Part shown: positions 31,380 through 53,232 of the stretch, piece after piece | How the letters are laid out: every line of letters starts with the position of its first letter | Position numbering within the stretch: position 1 is the first letter of the stretch | DNA from: Planctomycetota bacterium | GTDB lineage: Bacteria; Planctomycetota; Phycisphaerae; Phycisphaerales; Phycisphaeraceae | Direction: 5' to 3' | NCBI GenBank assembly: GCA_016350165.1 | Contig: CP066225.1 | Coordinates: 3,038,001 to 3,102,000 of the forward strand | Length of the DNA stretch: 64,000 bases | The notes under the pieces: model-generated | The model's database searches: none | What the model was told of the DNA's origin: nothing | What the model saw: the letters and a program-made list of their open reading frames with translations, nothing else | Position numbers and translations under genes: made by a program

Positions 31380-31760
31380 GTTGGTGTCTCGTTGAGAGAG
31401 GGGTAGTTTAGCTGAAAATATCACCGATGCAAGTCAGCCAGCCAAAGAAAGTGGGTGTGAATTAAGTGTGGAAGATTGGGGAGAATATGCTCTCCGATAC
31501 CATTCACAACTGGGTGAATAGACGCTTGGGAGGCAAGATAATGCCATGATTTTTCAATTAGTTTGTGTTCACAGACGGTTAAATGGGGATAAATCACACA
31601 AATCGAAAAAAAACAAGAAGTTCTGCATGGAAATATAAGTCGCTTCTCTGTTTGATATTGCGAATAGACTTCAGAGTCGCAAAAGTTTGTTCATCAACTT
31701 TTTTTACCGATCGGGCGATTGCGTTGGGCTAAGGTAGTGGTTAGGTTGTAGCCAACTAAC
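31380..31760. other. intergenic region upstream of the cobalamin riboswitch
   Basis: No gene. It should hold the tRNA promoter (minus strand) and the promoter for the riboswitch transcript (plus strand); I cannot place either with confidence. Confidence 0.35.
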
Positions 31761-31997
31761 AGGTGAAGCAGTTGTCTGTGTTGAAGATCAACTGCTTCTG
31801 AAAATGGGAAAGAGGACCCGCCTCGCTGTGCTTCATGCATGACGAATGGGAACAAGCCTCTGCGGACGCGCCGCCGTAATGAGCGATCAGCAAATGCTGT
31901 GTGTCACGTTCTGCGAAAGTCACTGATGGATCTGCAACGGATCGATTGGGAAGGCAAGCAGAAATGTGAAAAGCTCTAAGCCGGAAGACCTGCCTGA
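31761..31997 (+). promoter_or_regulatory. cobalamin (B12) riboswitch aptamer
   Basis: The conserved blocks of the adenosylcobalamin aptamer appear in the right order and spacing: an AGGTG opening with an AGCAGTTG/CAACTGCT stem and AAAATGGGAA (31761-31810); a second ATGGGAA before a stem; the core GCGGACGCGCCGCCGTAAT (31862-31880); AGTCACTG (31918-31925); GGGAAGG (31948-31954); and the closing GCCGGAAGACCTGCCT (31980-31995). It lies about 180 bases before the first gene of a three-gene run and should reduce that run's expression when B12 is plentiful. Boundaries are approximate. Confidence 0.95.
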
Positions 31998-32039
31998 TAG
32001 TGCCGATTGCTGTCCTCGCGTAAGGGACATAAGTGCACG

Positions 32040-32064: not shown

Positions 32065-32179
32065 ATCTCTTATGATCTTCAGGCATCTTATTTAAGCCCG
32101 AGCCTTACCGATGGACGCAGATTATTTCATCCATCAGGGTTGTTCTGCGCGAATCAGAACAAAAAGGAAGGCATTCAAG

Positions 32180-42507: not shown

Positions 42508-43674
42508 GTGCGCATGAGAAAGAGCAAAGCAATGTTGAAGTTAGCAGTCATTGGTGCGGGTGGTCGTGGTCATATTTCGAAGATGGCGCATCAGCCAGAA
42601 AACGGCGCGGCGCTTGTTGCGTTGTGTGATACAGACCCAAAAGCGTTCGAAATTTATCACGAACTGCTGGGAAGGGATATCGCAACCTACGGTGATTATC
42701 GTGAAGTGTTAAAACGCGATGACATTGATGCGGTGATTATTGCGACGCCTGATTTTTTGCATGAAGAACAAGCAGTGGCTGCGCTCGAGGCGGGGAAGGG
42801 TGTATACCTTGAGAAGCCGATGGCGATTACGATTGAAGGTTGTGATCGAATACTGAAAACAGCTAAAAAAACAGGGATAAAATTGTATGTGGGACACAAC
42901 ATGCGATTCTTTCCTGTGATGCAAAAAATGCGCGAGATTATCGAGTCGGGTCGCATTGGTGATGTGCAGGCGATTTGGTGTCGTCACTTTATTTCATATG
43001 GCGGGGATGCGTACTTCAAAGATTGGCATTCAGAAAGTAAGAACACAACGGGTTTATTGTTACAAAAGGGTGCGCATGATATTGATGTGATTCATTATTT
43101 GGCAGGCAGTCATACCGTGCGCACGGTGGGGATGGGGATGTTGTCGGTATATGACAAGGTTGCGGATCGTCGGGGTGCGGATGAGAAGGGGGATGCGAGG
43201 ATTGATGAAGGGAATTGGCCGCCGTTGGAGCAGAAGGGGGTTTCGCCTGTGATTGATGTTGAGGATCATTCGATGGTGATGATGCAGATGGCGAATGGTG
43301 TGCAGGGAAGTTATATGCAATGCCATTATTCGCCGGATGATGTGCGGAACTATACGGTGATCGGAACGAAGGGACGGATTGAAAATATTGGTGATCACTC
43401 GACGGAAGATAAAATAGCAAAGGTGCGTGTGTGGGACGCGCGGAACGGATTTAATGAGTTGGGCGATGAAGAGATTGCGGTGCCTGTTGCGGAGGGAACG
43501 CATGGTGGTGCGGACCCGATGATCATGGATGATTTTGTGCGTTATTTAAAGAGTGGTGAGTTGAGGGGGGCGACGCCTTGGGATGCGCGGCAGTCAGTTG
43601 CGGTGGGATGTTTGGCGACAGAGAGTTTGCGGAATGGGAATGTTGCGATGGATGTGCCGGGGTATGAAGGTTGA
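42508..43674 (+). CDS. Gfo/Idh/MocA-family oxidoreductase
   Basis: A 388-aa NAD(P)-dependent oxidoreductase acting on a sugar or polyol. The N-terminal Rossmann motif is AVIGAGGRG, followed by the family's YLEKPMAIT (Glu-Lys-Pro, with the catalytic Lys) and the substrate-domain KGAHDIDVIHYLAG, containing the usual Asp-x-x-x-x-His. The GTG at 42508 has GAGG 8-10 bases upstream; ATG at 42514 or 42532 are alternatives. The substrate cannot be named. It is the first gene of the segment with G-rich top strand, and its codons end in G far more than those of the sulfatase region. Confidence 0.9.
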   Translation: MRMRKSKAMLKLAVIGAGGRGHISKMAHQPENGAALVALCDTDPKAFEIYHELLGRDIATYGDYREVLKRDDIDAVIIATPDFLHEEQAVAALEAGKGVYLEKPMAITIEGCDRILKTAKKTGIKLYVGHNMRFFPVMQKMREIIESGRIGDVQAIWCRHFISYGGDAYFKDWHSESKNTTGLLLQKGAHDIDVIHYLAGSHTVRTVGMGMLSVYDKVADRRGADEKGDARIDEGNWPPLEQKGVSPVIDVEDHSMVMMQMANGVQGSYMQCHYSPDDVRNYTVIGTKGRIENIGDHSTEDKIAKVRVWDARNGFNELGDEEIAVPVAEGTHGGADPMIMDDFVRYLKSGELRGATPWDARQSVAVGCLATESLRNGNVAMDVPGYEG

Positions 43675-44301
43675 GACGTTGGTGATTCGGTTTTGTGCGC
43701 ACGTTTTGTTTGAAAGTTGGTTTTTGAGATGGTCTTAAAAGTGCTGTTTGAAAATGAGTCTATGCGCGTATTAGTCGAATTGGTGAGCGGTATTGTAAAG
43801 TTTTGTGATAAATAAAGGAGTTATGAATAGGGAGGCGAGCTTTTGTGCGCACGAATGTGAAAGTTTATTGATTTTCGATGATTTTCCCGTAGTAGGAAAT
43901 GGTCTGTTTTGGCTTGAAATGAGTAAGAAATGGCGCGTTTTAGGTTGGTATTAGTTAGAAAATGACTTGTTTTTAAGGGGCGATTGCGTGTTTGTGCGCG
44001 CGTTTTGTTTTGATGTTGGTTTGGTATGGGTTTTGCTGTGGGAAGTGTTTTAAGCATGTTGGATTGCGGTGTCCTCTATGGGGCCGGACCGGCCATTGAG
44101 GCTTTGAGCAAAGGATTGGGTTTAAGCGGGGGGCGGAGTGAGGAGGTGTGGGCTTTGGGTGAGGGGTGTGGGGATGATGGGTTGTTTCACTAGAACGTAT
44201 CGTTGGTTGGAGAGAGGAGTGTGTGGGGGGATTGAAGTGTGTTGGTGATTATGGAAATGTTTAGATGAGGTGATGGTTTTGGGTAGAGAATTGTTGGTGA
44301 T
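43675..44301. repeat. G-rich intergenic region with several short interspersed repeats
   Basis: No gene. Three kinds of repeat are visible. A 30-base unit beginning TTTGTGCGC occurs at 43692-43725 and 43991-44024 with few mismatches, and in part at 43842-43866. A 31-base imperfect palindrome with core GGCCGGACCGGCC is at 44071-44101. GTTTCACTAGAACGTATCG is at 44184-44202. The last two kinds recur at 45455-45671. The top strand here is extremely G-skewed (30 G and 5 C in 44101-44160). Confidence 0.75.
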
Positions 44302-44793
44302 TTATTGGGATGATTTGGAGCGTTTATTTATGTATTGGTAGGTTGATTTGAGAGTGGTGGCGATCATGTTGCCGGGGATGACGATGAAGATGAGTATGGT
44401 GTAGACATTAATGATGTTGAGGCGGTAGCCGCCGAGTCTGGCTCTGCTGTTATTGATTTGTGATGGTGATACGAAGAATCCGATGGTGATGATGGCTGCG
44501 ACGCTGAGGATGTATGCGATGTTGAGTATTGAGGGAGAGATGTCGGGATGTAGGGCATGGATGATGTAGTAAAGGGCTGTGAGAAAAATGGGTACAAAGA
44601 TCCAAGCGAGGGCGAGGATTGATTTGGGTAATGGTGGGTCTTCGGCTTCTTCGAGTATGCCGGCGTGGTTTACTTTTTTAACACCCCATCCGCAGTAGGG
44701 GCAGAAATGTGGAGAGCCTACGCCGGTGGCGTTGAATTTGGTTGGGCGGTTGCAGTTTGGGCAGCGTTTTGGAGTGTATAGGGTCTGAGTCAT
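44302..44793 (-). CDS. zinc-ribbon membrane protein, tandem family member 1
   Basis: A 163-aa protein of a family with four neighbouring copies. The N-terminal zinc ribbon has Cys11-Cys14 and Cys31-Cys34 in CPNC...CPYCGWG, then a linker and three membrane segments (about 58-82, 88-108, 122-146), the last containing FIVIPGNMIATTL. The IPG motif in the third segment recurs in sister proteins. No enzyme motif is seen. Function is unknown; a membrane-anchored nucleic acid or protein binder is only a guess. Ribosome-binding site and start are ordinary. Confidence 0.72.
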   Translation of the reverse strand: MTQTLYTPKRCPNCNRPTKFNATGVGSPHFCPYCGWGVKKVNHAGILEEAEDPPLPKSILALAWIFVPIFLTALYYIIHALHPDISPSILNIAYILSVAAIITIGFFVSPSQINNSRARLGGYRLNIINVYTILIFIVIPGNMIATTLKSTYQYINKRSKSSQ

Positions 44794-44864
44794 GGTCTTG
44801 CCCAGTTAGAAGAATGTCGTGTCTATTCGTCAGATAGTATGTGGAAATCAGGTGGGGAGGTTGG

Positions 44865-45362
44865 TTATTTGAATGGTTTTCGTTTTGGTGGGCAGTTGAA
44901 GATGCCTTTGATGGCGGTTGCGGTGATGGCGCCGGGGAGGAAGACGATGTAAATCATGATGAGGAAACGGAGGTTACGTTGGCCGGTGAAGTGGCCTTGG
45001 AAGTGGTCGGCATCGACGTTGTCGCCGATCATGGCAGGGTTGAAGACGAAGCCGATGGCGGTGAGGATGACGATGCCGACTAAGTAGCCTGCGGTGAATT
45101 GTGCTGGTTCGATGTCGTTGGCGAATTTGAGTACAAGGATGTAGGGAACGATGATGATGATAGGCGCAAGTATCCAACAGGCGATAATGATTTCGCGTGC
45201 GGCAGGTGGTTTTTTAGCTGGTTTTAAGACGCGAGAAGCTTTGATGGTATCCATGCCCCATCCGCAGTTGGTGCAGTAACGGGGAGCGCCTTTACCGGTG
45301 GTGTTGTATTTGGTTGCGCGGTTGCAGTTTGGACAGATGCGTGGAGCGGTTTGTGTTGCCAT
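44865..45362 (-). CDS. zinc-ribbon membrane protein, tandem family member 2
   Basis: A 165-aa sister of member 1. Zinc ribbon Cys10-Cys13 and Cys30-Cys33 (CPNCN...CTNCGWG), three membrane segments (about 57-80, 88-108, 131-155) and FLPG in the third segment. The similarity to member 1 in both the ribbon and the membrane part points to duplication. Function unknown. It lies 71 bases upstream of member 1 on the same strand. Confidence 0.72.
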   Translation of the reverse strand: MATQTAPRICPNCNRATKYNTTGKGAPRYCTNCGWGMDTIKASRVLKPAKKPPAAREIIIACWILAPIIIIVPYILVLKFANDIEPAQFTAGYLVGIVILTAIGFVFNPAMIGDNVDADHFQGHFTGQRNLRFLIMIYIVFLPGAITATAIKGIFNCPPKRKPFK

Positions 45363-45739
45363 GGTTTTGCCCTTTGGAAATAAGTAATGCTTGAAGGTCT
45401 ATATTAATGATGTGGTGGTGTTTCGTAAATTTATTGGGGTGTGTTTTTGTTTGGGTCCTCTATGAGGCCGGACTGGCCATTGAGGTGTTTCACTGTAGCG
45501 TATCGTCTGCATAACGATCGAATGGGTTGGGTTGTTTCACTAAAGCGTATCGTGGGTTGGGAACTTATGAAGACCGGCGACCTGTCAGGTCGCGGCTACT
45601 TGAGTTGTAGAAAGTATGTTGGTTGGAGTTTTGGGCGTTGGTGAGATGTTGCACTAAAGCGTATCGTTAGTTGTGAAACTGAATTTTTTGGTGGGGTGGG
45701 CTTGTGAAGTGCTTGTGGTGTTATTGTTTTGATGTGGGG
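45363..45739. repeat. intergenic cluster of short repeats between zinc-ribbon genes
   Basis: It holds a second copy of the palindromic CCTCTATG-core-CATTGAGG element (45455-45485), three copies of GTTTCACT..AGCGTATCGT (45487-45506, 45534-45553, and 45648-45667 with TTGCACT), and a separate hairpin GCGACCTG-T-CAGGTCGC (45578-45594). No gene is seen. The palindrome and a GTTTCACT copy also occur at 44071-44202. Confidence 0.75.
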
Positions 45740-46423
45740 TTAGTATTTGGGTTTGCGTGAGTATTGGTCTTTTAGACGCTTGCGGGATGAGTCTTGTTGT
45801 GGGGGTTGTGATTTTGCTTTGAGAAGTACTGGCTGCTTTTGCGGTGATTGCTTTTGAGGTTTGGGGGTTGTTTGCCTTTTATTTTTGGATTGAGGCTTTG
45901 CTTGTTGTTTGGGTTTTGATTTAGGTTTGTCTAACTGTTGATTAGATGATTTGGGTTCTTTGTTTTTATAGTTATGGTAGAGAACTTGGATGAGTTCGCC
46001 TGTGGTTCTGATGGTGAATGCGATGAGTGCGCCTGAGCCTATGACGAGAACGATGATGATGAGGATGTGGTTAGTTGATCGGAGTTTTGTGATTGTTTTG
46101 ATGGGGTCGAGGAAGAAGCCGAGACAGGTGAAGAATGCGGCGAAGATTGAGTAGAAGATGAGTGAATCGGAGGAATATTCTGCGAGATAGTTGGTGTAGA
46201 CGAGGTATGGTCCGACGAGAAGTGTGATGGAGGCGATGAGCAGAATGAAGTACATGAGTAGAGAGGGTAGTTGAGTGTGGTTTTGTTCGTATGTGGGAGT
46301 GATGGGTTGTGTGCCCCAGGCGCAGTATGGGCAGAAGCGTGGAGCGCCGGTGCCTGAGGTGTTGAGACGTGTGAGTTTATTGCAAAGTGGGCAGTGTTTT
46401 GGGCCTTGGGGTGAGTTGGGCAT
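45740..46423 (-). CDS. zinc-ribbon membrane protein with basic tail, tandem family member 3
   Basis: A 227-aa relative of members 1 and 2. The ribbon has Cys11-Cys14 and Cys31-Cys34 (CPLCNK...CPYCAWG), and three membrane segments follow (about 53-78, 85-108, 120-145). Unlike its sisters it ends with about 75 residues rich in Lys, Gln, Ser and Pro (from KEPKSSN on), a flexible basic tail that could bind nucleic acid or an acidic polymer. Function unknown. Confidence 0.7.
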   Translation of the reverse strand: MPNSPQGPKHCPLCNKLTRLNTSGTGAPRFCPYCAWGTQPITPTYEQNHTQLPSLLMYFILLIASITLLVGPYLVYTNYLAEYSSDSLIFYSIFAAFFTCLGFFLDPIKTITKLRSTNHILIIIVLVIGSGALIAFTIRTTGELIQVLYHNYKNKEPKSSNQQLDKPKSKPKQQAKPQSKNKRQTTPKPQKQSPQKQPVLLKAKSQPPQQDSSRKRLKDQYSRKPKY

Positions 46424-46533
46424 TGCTTTGTCCGGAAATTAGGAGTGAGAGAAACGTCTAAGCGTATGTTAGTGTTAAAGGGGCGGTGAGTAAATTGAGG
46501 TTTGAAGTGTGTGCCATGAAGGGGGATGGGTTA

Positions 46534-46566
46534 TAAAAAAACTGCGATTGTTTGGATCGCAGTTTG
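46534..46566 (-). terminator. rho-independent terminator of zinc-ribbon gene 4
   Basis: On the minus strand AACTGCGAT pairs with ATCGCAGTT around a 7-base loop, followed by TTTTTATAA. Confidence 0.9.
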
Positions 46567-46590
46567 GGGTTGGTTTGTTGTGTGGCTTAA

Positions 46591-47142
46591 TTATTTGAGT
46601 GTGCGGCCTAGCAGGGCAGTGATTGACCAGACGAGAAGTTTGCCGGGGATGAGGAGGATGGTGAGGATGGTTGAGGTTTGGTTTGTTTCGTCGTTGATCT
46701 TGAATGGGTTGTCGAATGCCCAGACGTCCCAGTCTTCGTAGATGCGAGGGTCTTCGAAATATGAGGCAGCGAGGTAGATGATGGCGAGTAGCCAATATGC
46801 GATGTGGAATGGGATGGGGAGTGAGGCACCGAATGGCCAGAGTGTGACGAAGAGTATGTAAGGGATGGCAAGGAGGACGGTGGAGGCAATGAGAGAGAGG
46901 CCGATGCGGATGTATGAAGGTAGGATGATGTATTGGGTATTCATATGATGCTGCTCCTCTTGAACGATCCCCTTGCTAAGGTCGGCTGCTTTATCTTTAC
47001 CCCATCCACAATCGGGGCAATAGAATGCTTTTGTTTCGTACTTCTTAGGGTGGTGTACTTCGTGGACTTGATGGTTGCATTTGGGGCAACGCATCTGTGC
47101 GGTTCGGTCGGCATGTTGTTGTGGTGTGGTTAGTTGTGTCAT
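46591..47142 (-). CDS. zinc-ribbon membrane protein, tandem family member 4
   Basis: A 183-aa member with longer N-terminus: Cys19-Cys22 and Cys42-Cys45 (CPKCN...CPDCGWG), then membrane segments (about 68-92, 100-122, 150-175) and LLIPGKLLVWSI in the third. It has its own terminator downstream, so it is transcribed separately from members 1-3. The shared CxxC...CxxCGWG and IPG features mark common ancestry. Function unknown. Confidence 0.7.
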   Translation of the reverse strand: MTQLTTPQQHADRTAQMRCPKCNHQVHEVHHPKKYETKAFYCPDCGWGKDKAADLSKGIVQEEQHHMNTQYIILPSYIRIGLSLIASTVLLAIPYILFVTLWPFGASLPIPFHIAYWLLAIIYLAASYFEDPRIYEDWDVWAFDNPFKINDETNQTSTILTILLIPGKLLVWSITALLGRTLK

Positions 47143-47428: not shown

Positions 47429-47470
47429 TAAAAAAATTCACACATGCGCCGAATGGGGCACATGTGTGAA
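47429..47470 (-). terminator. rho-independent terminator of DAHP synthase gene
   Basis: On the minus strand TTCACACATG pairs with CATGTGTGAA, with inner pairing TGCC/GGCG, and runs into TTTTTTTAC. Confidence 0.92.
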
Positions 47471-52229: not shown

Positions 52230-52512
52230 GGGCTGTGTTTCTTTTCGTAAAAAACGGTTTGGTTACTGACAACACTCGAGCGTACAGTGTACGAAGTTAT
52301 ACAAATCACGCAATTCCAAATGCCTGATTTCGCATGATTAAGTTAGTGTATATACTCAGTAAAAACACTTAAATCATTATGTGTAAAAGCTTTATGTTGT
52401 TATCGGATGGATACGGTTTGGTAGTTGATAATCTGTTATGTGAGGATCTTGAGGGGAAGATGCTCGAAGGGTAATGTGGTGAGAGCAAGTCATGTTAAGT
52501 CGGGAGCGAGCG
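52230..52512. other. divergent gap between TolC-like and RDD genes
   Basis: AT-rich, containing the promoters for both divergent genes. I see no repeat or RNA. Confidence 0.3.
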
Positions 52513-53232
52513 ATGAAACAGGTATGCCAGTTGTGTGAGAAGCAGATCAAACGGGGGCTGAAATGTGAGATGGAAGGGCAGATTCTGTGCTGGGGCTGTC
52601 GGAATGAGCTTGTATATGGGCGGTGTATGGCATTTGTGATCGATTGTGTCTTGTTGATGTTTGTGGCTGGTGCTTTGATGCTGTTTGTTTCGTATAGTCT
52701 GCCGACGGTTGGTTTTCTGTTTGGAATGGATTTCCCACGTCATATTGATGAGACGATTCTGGGGAACGTGACAGTCGCAGCGATCTTCATGTTGCTGTTT
52801 TTGATTAAAGATGGGTTTGGTGGATACTCATTGGGCAAATATCTGGTCGGGCTTCGTGTGGTTGATCGGTATGACGTGAACAAGCCGGCGGGACTTTGGC
52901 GGTCGTTTTTGAGGAACTGGATTTTGCTCATTATGCCTATGGTTTTGATCGTCTCGCTGCAGCTGAGAAATGGTCGTAGGTTTGGCGATGGTTGGGCGAA
53001 GACGCGCGTGATAAATCAGAAGAAGGTTTGGACCCCTTTTGATGCAATGGACCCGAGGTACTATGAGTGCGGTTATGATCTTCGTGGGCTTAAAGGATCA
53101 TCGTGTCTAGAGTGTGGCGGACAGATAAGTACTGAAAATATAGAGCGAATCGAAGCAAGTAGGCTGCAAAGTGAGTTGGCAGTTCATGATTCTGGTGAGG
53201 TTGAGGAGAGTGACGATTTGTCTAACACATGA
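52513..53232 (+). CDS. RDD-family membrane protein with zinc ribbons at both ends
   Basis: A 239-aa protein. The N-terminus has Cys pairs (CQLC at 5-8, Cys18, CWGC at 26-29), followed by the RDD domain with RCMAFVIDCVLL (the Arg-Asp motif) and three membrane segments (about 38-62, 80-100, 130-150). The C-terminal ECGYDLRGLKGSSCLECGG is a zinc ribbon of a kind widespread in planctomycetes. GGGAG before the ATG at 52513 makes that start better than 52492. Function unknown; some RDD proteins are ion-handling membrane proteins. Confidence 0.82.
   Translation: MKQVCQLCEKQIKRGLKCEMEGQILCWGCRNELVYGRCMAFVIDCVLLMFVAGALMLFVSYSLPTVGFLFGMDFPRHIDETILGNVTVAAIFMLLFLIKDGFGGYSLGKYLVGLRVVDRYDVNKPAGLWRSFLRNWILLIMPMVLIVSLQLRNGRRFGDGWAKTRVINQKKVWTPFDAMDPRYYECGYDLRGLKGSSCLECGGQISTENIERIEASRLQSELAVHDSGEVEESDDLSNT

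Follow-up and report, generated by a model that had tools for sequence, protein, structure and literature searches.

Introduction

Small membrane proteins bearing a zinc ribbon are common in planctomycetes, and the present study concerns four of them, encoded by the adjoining genes g1 to g4 of the deep-sea planctomycete Poriferisphaera heterotrophicis ZRK32 (genome label G000). The genes lie in a stretch of 64,000 nucleotides (nt), called the window below, which covers positions 3,038,001–3,102,000 of a genome assembled as one contig (5,234,020 bases). Among described proteins, generic zinc ribbons (HVO_2753-type NF041909, PRK14890-type NF011481, Pfam Zn_ribbon and the Lar-like phrog_6422) share the two CxxC knuckles with the window proteins but score below the cut-off where one exists, and their matches span the ribbon only. 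RDD-like proteins, such as those of genomes G231 and G119 (named by eye), also carry a ribbon followed by membrane segments, but their membrane domain is of another kind by eye, and they were met through the ribbon and the stretch that follows it.

The closest likeness is to an unnamed family of small membrane proteins, for example in Clostridium aminobutyricum, Pedobacter and Verrucomicrobiaceae (L051, L053, L042), which share with g1–g4 three similarly spaced hydrophobic segments, a proline before the loop that characterises the family, a PG in the third segment and a profile match to g4. Compared with these canonical members, the window proteins add a zinc ribbon, and g1–g3 have neither the loop motif nor a basic residue following PG. 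Two further proteins, L038 of genome G474 and L010 of G040, resemble the window proteins in joining a ribbon that ends in CGWG to the membrane domain; L038 retains the canonical NPFSLEDDRNR...PGK, and L010 only NPVLTGEHRYNR. Both differ from the window proteins in having no second member alongside in the stretches read, in their other neighbours and in that only two of their segments exceed the hydropathy threshold. We compare g1–g4 with these proteins and with C1 and C4, the two members found in the second species of the genus, P. corsica KS4 (G044).

Results

The open reading frames of g1–g4 have exactly the limits given in a first-pass annotation, made from the sequence alone, and all lie on the minus strand (Table 1). 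That annotation described ribbons of the form CxxC...CxxCGWG, three membrane segments and an IPG-like motif in the third. Both CxxC knuckles are present in all four proteins, but the GWG ending is confined to g1, g2 and g4, g3 reading CPYCAWG. Each protein has three hydrophobic 19-residue segments (mean Kyte-Doolittle hydropathy above 1.5), and an IPG-like motif stands in three of them (IPGN, LPGA and, in g4, IPGK) but is degenerate in g3. The tail ascribed to the third member has the length and Lys/Gln/Pro-rich composition described, and the members are indeed diverged, the other three being 35, 33 and 30% identical to g1. There is no fifth copy in the ZRK32 genome, where the next match to a profile of the four genes has an E value of 0.017.

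By sequence comparison, g1–g4 form the diverged end of a broad and unnamed family of bacterial membrane proteins, which usually lack the ribbon. The family signature is GGxIDNPFRYSDDxNR...PG[RK], and its usual form reads MSxFEWxGESxNPGPxG..., followed by three hydrophobic segments and GWxGGLIDNPFRYSDDxNR...PGR. Membership was judged with a profile of 15 ribbon-less relatives, none of them from Poriferisphaera, searched against 645 frames of at least 60 residues drawn from the ZRK32 window, the KS4 stretch and the G040 stretch. The first three ranks went to C4 (1.8e-12), g4 (4.2e-12) and the G040 protein (1.1e-9), and the next four to C1 (8.5e-7), g1 (4e-5), g2 (1.2e-3) and g3 (0.084); the eighth frame had an E value of 3. 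Homology of the four proteins to the family is thus shown, if only weakly for g3 taken alone, which shares the ribbon and the arrangement with g1 and g2.

The four genes differ in what they keep of the family hallmarks. A partial form of the loop motif [ND][NH]PFxx[SE]DDxNR, DNPFKINDETNQ, is found in g4, and the motif is missing from g1, g2, g3 and C1. In the third segment, P[GA] followed by R or K occurs in 23 of the 28 aligned proteins, the exceptions being g1, g2, g3 and two others: g4 keeps the basic residue (PGK), while g1 (PGN), g2 (PGA) and g3 (SGA) do not. We therefore file g4 as a family member and g1–g3 only as derived homologues; the zinc ribbon is an add-on to the wider membrane family.

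Motif loss in g1–g3 is accompanied by a different distribution of conservation along the aligned proteins. Between the orthologs g4 and C4, 20 of 21 loop residues are identical, compared with 21/36 in the ribbon, 11/24 in the linker, 37/54 in segments 1–2 and 24/31 in segment 3. The corresponding counts for g1 and C1 are 1/19 in the loop, 18/31 in the ribbon, 8/16 in the linker, 16/50 in segments 1–2 and 12/29 in segment 3; g2 and C1 share 3/21 loop and 18/31 ribbon residues, g3 and C1 1/11 and 19/31. Among g1–g3 overall, 17–19 of 31–33 ribbon residues are identical, and no more than a quarter of the loop. Ribbon conservation is alike in both kinds (21/36 vs 18/31), so that the difference lies in the loop, and all four cysteines are present in all six Poriferisphaera proteins. 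The ratio of nonsynonymous to synonymous substitution rates (dN/dS, NG86) is 0.31 for g4–C4, where seven flanking genes give 0.12–0.40; against C1 it is 0.67 for g1, 1.05 for g2 and 0.68 for g3, at high dS (0.58–0.90).

The family reaches well beyond Poriferisphaera, with members in Planctomycetota, Verrucomicrobiota, KSB1, Bacteroidota, Bacillota, Myxococcota and Gammaproteobacteria, and by these searches it appears broad but sparse. The four-gene profile matched 5 of 51 Phycisphaeraceae genomes at E ≤ 0.01, and the frames read in ZRK32, KS4 and G040 proved to be full-length relatives. In G048 and G050 (L011, L012) the match was confined to a C-terminal ribbon, and these were rejected, as was a second, weaker match in G040 (L014, 112 residues, 0.0012), a ribbon protein. 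A second profile, made from seven ribbon proteins (the four genes, the P. corsica pair and the G040 protein), matched 9 of 397 genomes of the class, of which four were accepted (G000, G044, G040, G019), and 6 of 392 genomes of the phylum, of which five were accepted (G000, G019, G474, G492, G544); these counts are lower bounds, since at most 9 candidates were scored per genome. The matches rejected in the class search were two RDD-like proteins (L024, L026), a short ribbon protein (L025) and an Fpg-like protein, and the sixth match in the phylum search was also Fpg-like, all named by eye; the Fpg/MutM-like proteins (L027, L037), like the other rejected matches, had been met through a ribbon. 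The frame of a fifth non-accepted genome of the class search, G072, was left unread, as were L028 and L031.

The seven-protein profile found the G474 protein, which combines a ribbon with NPFSLEDDRNR...LLPGK, at 5e-19, and proteins with the membrane part and no ribbon in G019 (7e-11), G544 (1e-7) and G492 (1e-6). A profile of these four matched 4 of 12 genomes in the class of G474. A scan of contigs from named genomes confirmed none of 4 pattern matches when the four window genes alone served as the alignment; with a motif-rich alignment of four proteins it gave 73 pattern matches, and 17 loci were confirmed by tblastn, 4 of them the queries themselves. These loci, mostly metagenome-assembled, come from Planctomycetota, Verrucomicrobiaceae, KSB1, Gammaproteobacteria, Paraliomyxa, Chitinophagaceae, Clostridium aminobutyricum and Pedobacter. 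Of 324 planctomycete genomes, 12 were matched by a 17-row profile, with 12 candidates scored per genome; its only hit at E ≤ 0.001 in ZRK32 was g4. G494, G584 (E about 1e-5) and G547 are included in the search count and absent from the alignments; L043 was left out of the hit table as a twin of L042; rows L034, L023, L035 and L036 of the alignment were replaced by L038, L041, L044 and L047, read as the same proteins; and the PGK of row L009 was read from the alignment. Profile searches of bacterial genomes, a check proposed in the first-pass annotation, show a family wider than was assumed there.

No Pfam or NCBIfam model reached its cut-off for g1–g4 or for seven wider relatives, in keeping with the earlier description of the family as uncharacterised. 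Membrane models below the Pfam cut-off, such as DUF2162 (0.008, g1) and Saf_2TM (0.008, g3), were taken as chance. Generic ribbon models scored 20.2 bits (NF041909) and 18.3 bits (NF011481) to g4 and 22.0 bits (phrog_6422) to g1. The best ribbon match in PADLOC was a Cas12f model (4.6e-6, g4 residues 11–51) and in PHROGs phrog_6422 (3.4e-4, g1). In these two collections g1, g2 and g4 matched through the ribbon only, g3 had weak matches (0.004–0.009) over the third segment and tail, and two canonical members had none. Phage records gave no match to L053 as query, one scan of viral contigs confirmed 0 of 15 pattern matches, and with L051 as query a single plasmid match (Spirosoma) was obtained. 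A text search with the family motif strings found none that carries them among the papers covered.

Copy number varies, as the first-pass annotation had suggested might be seen among strains, here in a comparison across species: ZRK32 has four members and KS4 two at the same locus. The KS4 locus is inverted and begins with DAHP synthase and C4; next come two genes on the opposite strand, one TetR-like and one SDR-like, and then C1 and GFO/IDH. C4 (67% identity to g4) occupies the same place after DAHP synthase, and g1 is the positional counterpart of C1, each adjoining the GFO/IDH gene. Counterparts of the KS4 TetR-like and SDR-like genes (71% and 77%) sit near 3.97 Mb in ZRK32, which indicates that the loci differ by rearrangement. 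This pair (KS4 L015 10683–12257; ZRK32 3.973–3.975 Mb), beside which ZRK32 has a second SDR copy (65%), forms a rearranged cassette. A search of 504 frames from the KS4 stretch for remnants of g2 or g3 found nothing below E 0.2 apart from C1 and C4; these genes may have been lost in KS4 or gained in ZRK32.

In a tree whose bootstrap had not settled, the six Poriferisphaera proteins group at 90/85, with g4 and C4 together at 100/99 and g1, C1 and g2 at 98/91; C1 stands next to g2 with weak support (91/60), and g3 sits on a long branch (89/51). For the tree the protein g3 was trimmed to 155 residues, whereas the regional count used 160 and the remnant search 158. Values of dS among g1–g3 (0.74–1.08) match those of the flanking genes between ZRK32 and KS4 (0.51–1.91 in 7 of 8, the eighth not being computable), so the duplications are not recent. 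Of the local expansion of an uncharacterised family that was first proposed, the uncharacterised family stands, and the copies are old instead of recent, C1 falling inside the g1/g2 group. The selection for diversity read from that expansion is not borne out: dN/dS does not clearly exceed 1, the ribbon shows conservation and not diversification, and no observation speaks to sensing or surface stress.

In the six Poriferisphaera proteins the first loop holds at most one Lys or Arg and the N-terminal part 4–11. By the positive-inside rule, the scarcity of charge in the first loop would place the ribbon and the hallmark loop in the cytosol, and we infer a cytosolic ribbon. L010 and L038 have been mentioned as having two segments above threshold, and when Poriferisphaera and G040 are set aside, hydrophobicity is lower over the 12 residues following PG than over the 12 preceding it in 17 of 21 proteins, so that the third segment may be a half-helix with the C-terminus inside. 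The predicted model of g4 has a mean predicted local distance difference test (pLDDT) score of 78.4 and a predicted template modelling (pTM) score of 0.57, that of the canonical L042 86.8 and 0.75. The g4 model shows strands at residues 27–30 and 38–41 between the CxxC knuckles; the knuckles are present in all four proteins, and the ribbons are presumed to bind zinc.

Features of the locus are listed in Table 1. Terminator-like hairpins follow both DAHP synthase and g4, so that g4 probably stands alone and ends its own transcript; the stretch has six terminator-like sites in all, against a chance expectation of 3.8. The g1–g2 gap is 71 nt, and g2 and g1 may form one transcription unit. A scan for sigma-70 promoters gave 0 where 4.3 are expected by chance and is uninformative.

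Table 1. Genes, motifs, hairpins and repeats at the g1–g4 locus (window positions)
Feature	Position	Strand	Description or basis
GFO/IDH-type oxidoreductase gene (flank)	42508–43674	+	named from sequence
355-nt interspersed element, copy beyond g1, outside the gene group	43686–44040	+	repeat search
g1	44302–44793	-	163 aa; ribbon and three hydrophobic segments, IPGN, loop motif lost
Zinc ribbon of g1 (C11–C34)	44692–44763	-	sequence
g2	44865–45362	-	165 aa; ribbon and three hydrophobic segments, LPGA, loop motif lost
Zinc ribbon of g2 (C10–C33)	45264–45335	-	sequence
g2–g3 spacer repeats: one CCTCTATG..., three TTTCACT... (one with a mismatch)	45457–45667	+	repeat search
g3	45740–46423	-	227 aa; ribbon CPYCAWG, three hydrophobic segments, shortened loop, GSGA, Lys/Gln/Pro tail
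g3 tail, 75 residues (19 K, 14 Q, 11 P)	45743–45967	-	sequence
Zinc ribbon of g3 (C11–C34)	46322–46393	-	sequence
Terminator-like hairpin after g4, 10 pairs	46539–46565	-	hairpin scan
g4	46591–47142	-	183 aa; family-like member, loop motif retained
g4 PGK in third hydrophobic segment	46639–46647	-	alignment
g4 loop motif DNPFKINDETNQT	46675–46713	-	counterpart of wider-family IDNPFRYSDDxNR
Zinc ribbon of g4 (C19–C45)	47008–47088	-	sequence
Terminator-like hairpin between DAHP synthase and g4, 14 pairs	47437–47470	-	hairpin scan
DAHP synthase gene (flank)	from 47527	-	named from sequence

The spacers had been called repeat-rich, which holds for that between g2 and g3 and for one beyond g1; those between g1 and g2 and between g3 and g4 contain no copy of the two short repeats at up to 3 mismatches. 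The inter-gene repeats are genome-wide elements and not particular to the locus. The short intergenic repeat TTTCACTRNARCGTATCGT has 46 exact copies in ZRK32 (reversed control 0), 2 in KS4 and none in four other genomes of the family. In the window it occurs at 44185, 45488 and 45535 (exact) and at 45649, 41319 and 41219 (1–2 mismatches); 5 plus-strand and 16 minus-strand copies lie before 2.3 Mb and 18 and 7 after it (Fisher 0.003, with a boundary chosen post hoc). A 29-nt near-palindromic repeat, CCTCTATGRGGCCGGACYGGCCATTGAGG, has two copies in the window (44073–44101 and 45457–45485), each upstream of a TTTCACT repeat.

The 355-nt element is restricted to Poriferisphaera, being present in both its genomes and absent from the other 49 of 51 family genomes, with at least 50 matches in ZRK32, where 40 of 147 candidates were scored, and at least 12 in KS4 (13 of 90 scored; one site is L015 13443–13989). 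Twenty other full-length ZRK32 copies (L120–L139) are 73–83% identical to the window copy, and 19 of the 21 extracted copies, window copy included, measure 355–358 nt. Among the 16 of these that were aligned, 13 have three GTGCGCRC palindromes spaced by 149–150 nt, and all 16 have TTATG[AG]A, preceded by AAAGGAG in 7 copies and by similar sequences in the other 9; the short frame that follows ends at varying places. Covariation indicative of a structured RNA is weak (-0.83; both partners differ in 1 of 35 pairs), and the window copy has no match in Rfam. Within 400 nt downstream of 6 of the 21 copies stands TTTCACTRNARCGTATCGT in the same direction.

Elsewhere in the window, a cobalamin riboswitch (31747–32011, plus strand; Rfam RF00174, 52.7 bits) precedes by about 100 nt a gene at 32111 whose product was named by eye as a secreted protein of PEP-CTERM type. 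An RDD-like membrane protein (52492–53232, plus strand) with the ribbon motifs YECGYDLRGL...CLECG, also named by eye, is another kind of ribbon-bearing membrane protein in the window. Guanine-cytosine (GC) skew rises from -0.28 at 41–42 kb to +0.55 at 44–45 kb; in 20 genome samples of 15 kb it swings from -0.34 to +0.34 between samples and shows no evident relation to which strand carries the long frames.

Discussion

The explanation we favour, tentatively and at a little under an even chance for the whole of it, takes as the ancestral functional site the conserved loop (GGxIDNPFRYSDDxNR) that joins the second hydrophobic segment to the third, PG[RK]-bearing one. In some planctomycetes the family domain is fused behind an N-terminal zinc ribbon, and in Poriferisphaera the fused gene would have been duplicated before the two known species split. 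One copy, g4, has retained the loop and presumably its old job. The other three have lost the loop, and in ZRK32 also the basic residue after PG, retaining the ribbon and a membrane anchor; they would now probably be membrane-anchored zinc-ribbon adaptors that tether a cytosolic partner, protein or nucleic acid, to the inner membrane, a role at which we can only guess.

Several observations weigh against this explanation. The match of g3 to the family is not significant by itself, and C1, which also lacks the loop, retains PGR. The Fisher values for loop versus ribbon (0.002 for g4–C4, 0.0002 for g1–C1 and 0.002 for g2–C1) disregard shared ancestry and multiple looks and come from regions drawn by hand on a small alignment, the loop having just 19–21 columns. 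Between g4 and C4 the linker is less conserved than the ribbon, which is therefore not the least constrained part of that protein, and the dN/dS values of g1–g3 against C1 are compatible with relaxed constraint. With three passes and the ribbon inside, the tail of g3, whose C-terminus carries 24 Lys and Arg, would lie outside, contrary to the positive-inside rule. No match was found by Foldseek in the PDB at 0.001 for the g4 or L042 model, nor among solved structures by sequence below E 0.04, and outside Poriferisphaera no neighbour genes are shared, by eye, at 10 loci and 8 further regions, some of them overlapping.

Foremost among the alternatives is that g1–g3 are superfluous copies decaying under relaxed selection, with the ribbon lagging behind. 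This would account for the lost loop, for dN (0.56–0.61) and dS against C1 far above those of flanks such as DAHP synthase (0.08/0.51), and for P. corsica having neither a counterpart nor a remnant of two of the three. We nevertheless regard it as unlikely, though by no means negligible: frames of 163–227 codons have stayed open, each protein retains the four cysteines, the W-G after them and three hydrophobic segments, and ribbon conservation among g1–g3 and C1 (52–61%) is close to that between the g4 orthologs (58%). The same conserved ribbon, together with membrane segments that are still hydrophobic, speaks against diversifying selection, for sensing or surface stress, as the force that parted the copies. 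The strong divergence outside the ribbon, the unique tail of g3 and the g2–C1 ratio of 1.05 do fit such a process, but that ratio was obtained at high dS by a rough method, the remaining two lie at 0.67–0.68, and no evident sensor gene is found among the ZRK32 neighbours; we consider this improbable.

A redox or metal sensor, in which the ribbon would detect zinc or the thiol state and signal to the membrane part, agrees with four invariant cysteines that face the cytosol by charge. It is quite improbable, as in g1–g3 conservation is confined to the ribbon and the membrane part drifts, and the TetR-like neighbour that the members have in P. corsica does not adjoin them in ZRK32. Finally, the wider family could be a membrane pore with two passes and a pore-like loop, similar to small potassium channels, as the best structural neighbours of the L042 model, the only one used in a second structural comparison, were chains of NaK and KcsA (79 residues, 3.6 A). 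The Z scores of up to 5.0 are of a size common for helical models, according to the tool's own warning, Foldseek gave E values of 1.8 or more, identity in the alignment is 4%, and nothing like TVGYG, the selectivity filter signature of potassium channels, is seen in the family alignment, so that we hold a pore to be highly improbable.

Conclusions

The comparison yields a signature and a list of members for a small multi-phylum membrane family, none of whose scanned proteins scored at the cut-off of a Pfam or NCBIfam model, and it makes loop and ribbon separable through natural paralogues in two cultured species. It is possible, though less likely than not, that the copies have split two working surfaces of the ancestral protein between them, with the deeply conserved loop on g4 and the ribbon alone on g1–g3. 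If so, Poriferisphaera would offer a natural dissection of an unnamed cross-phylum family, and such a division of functions would help to give a role to a conserved protein that has no name.

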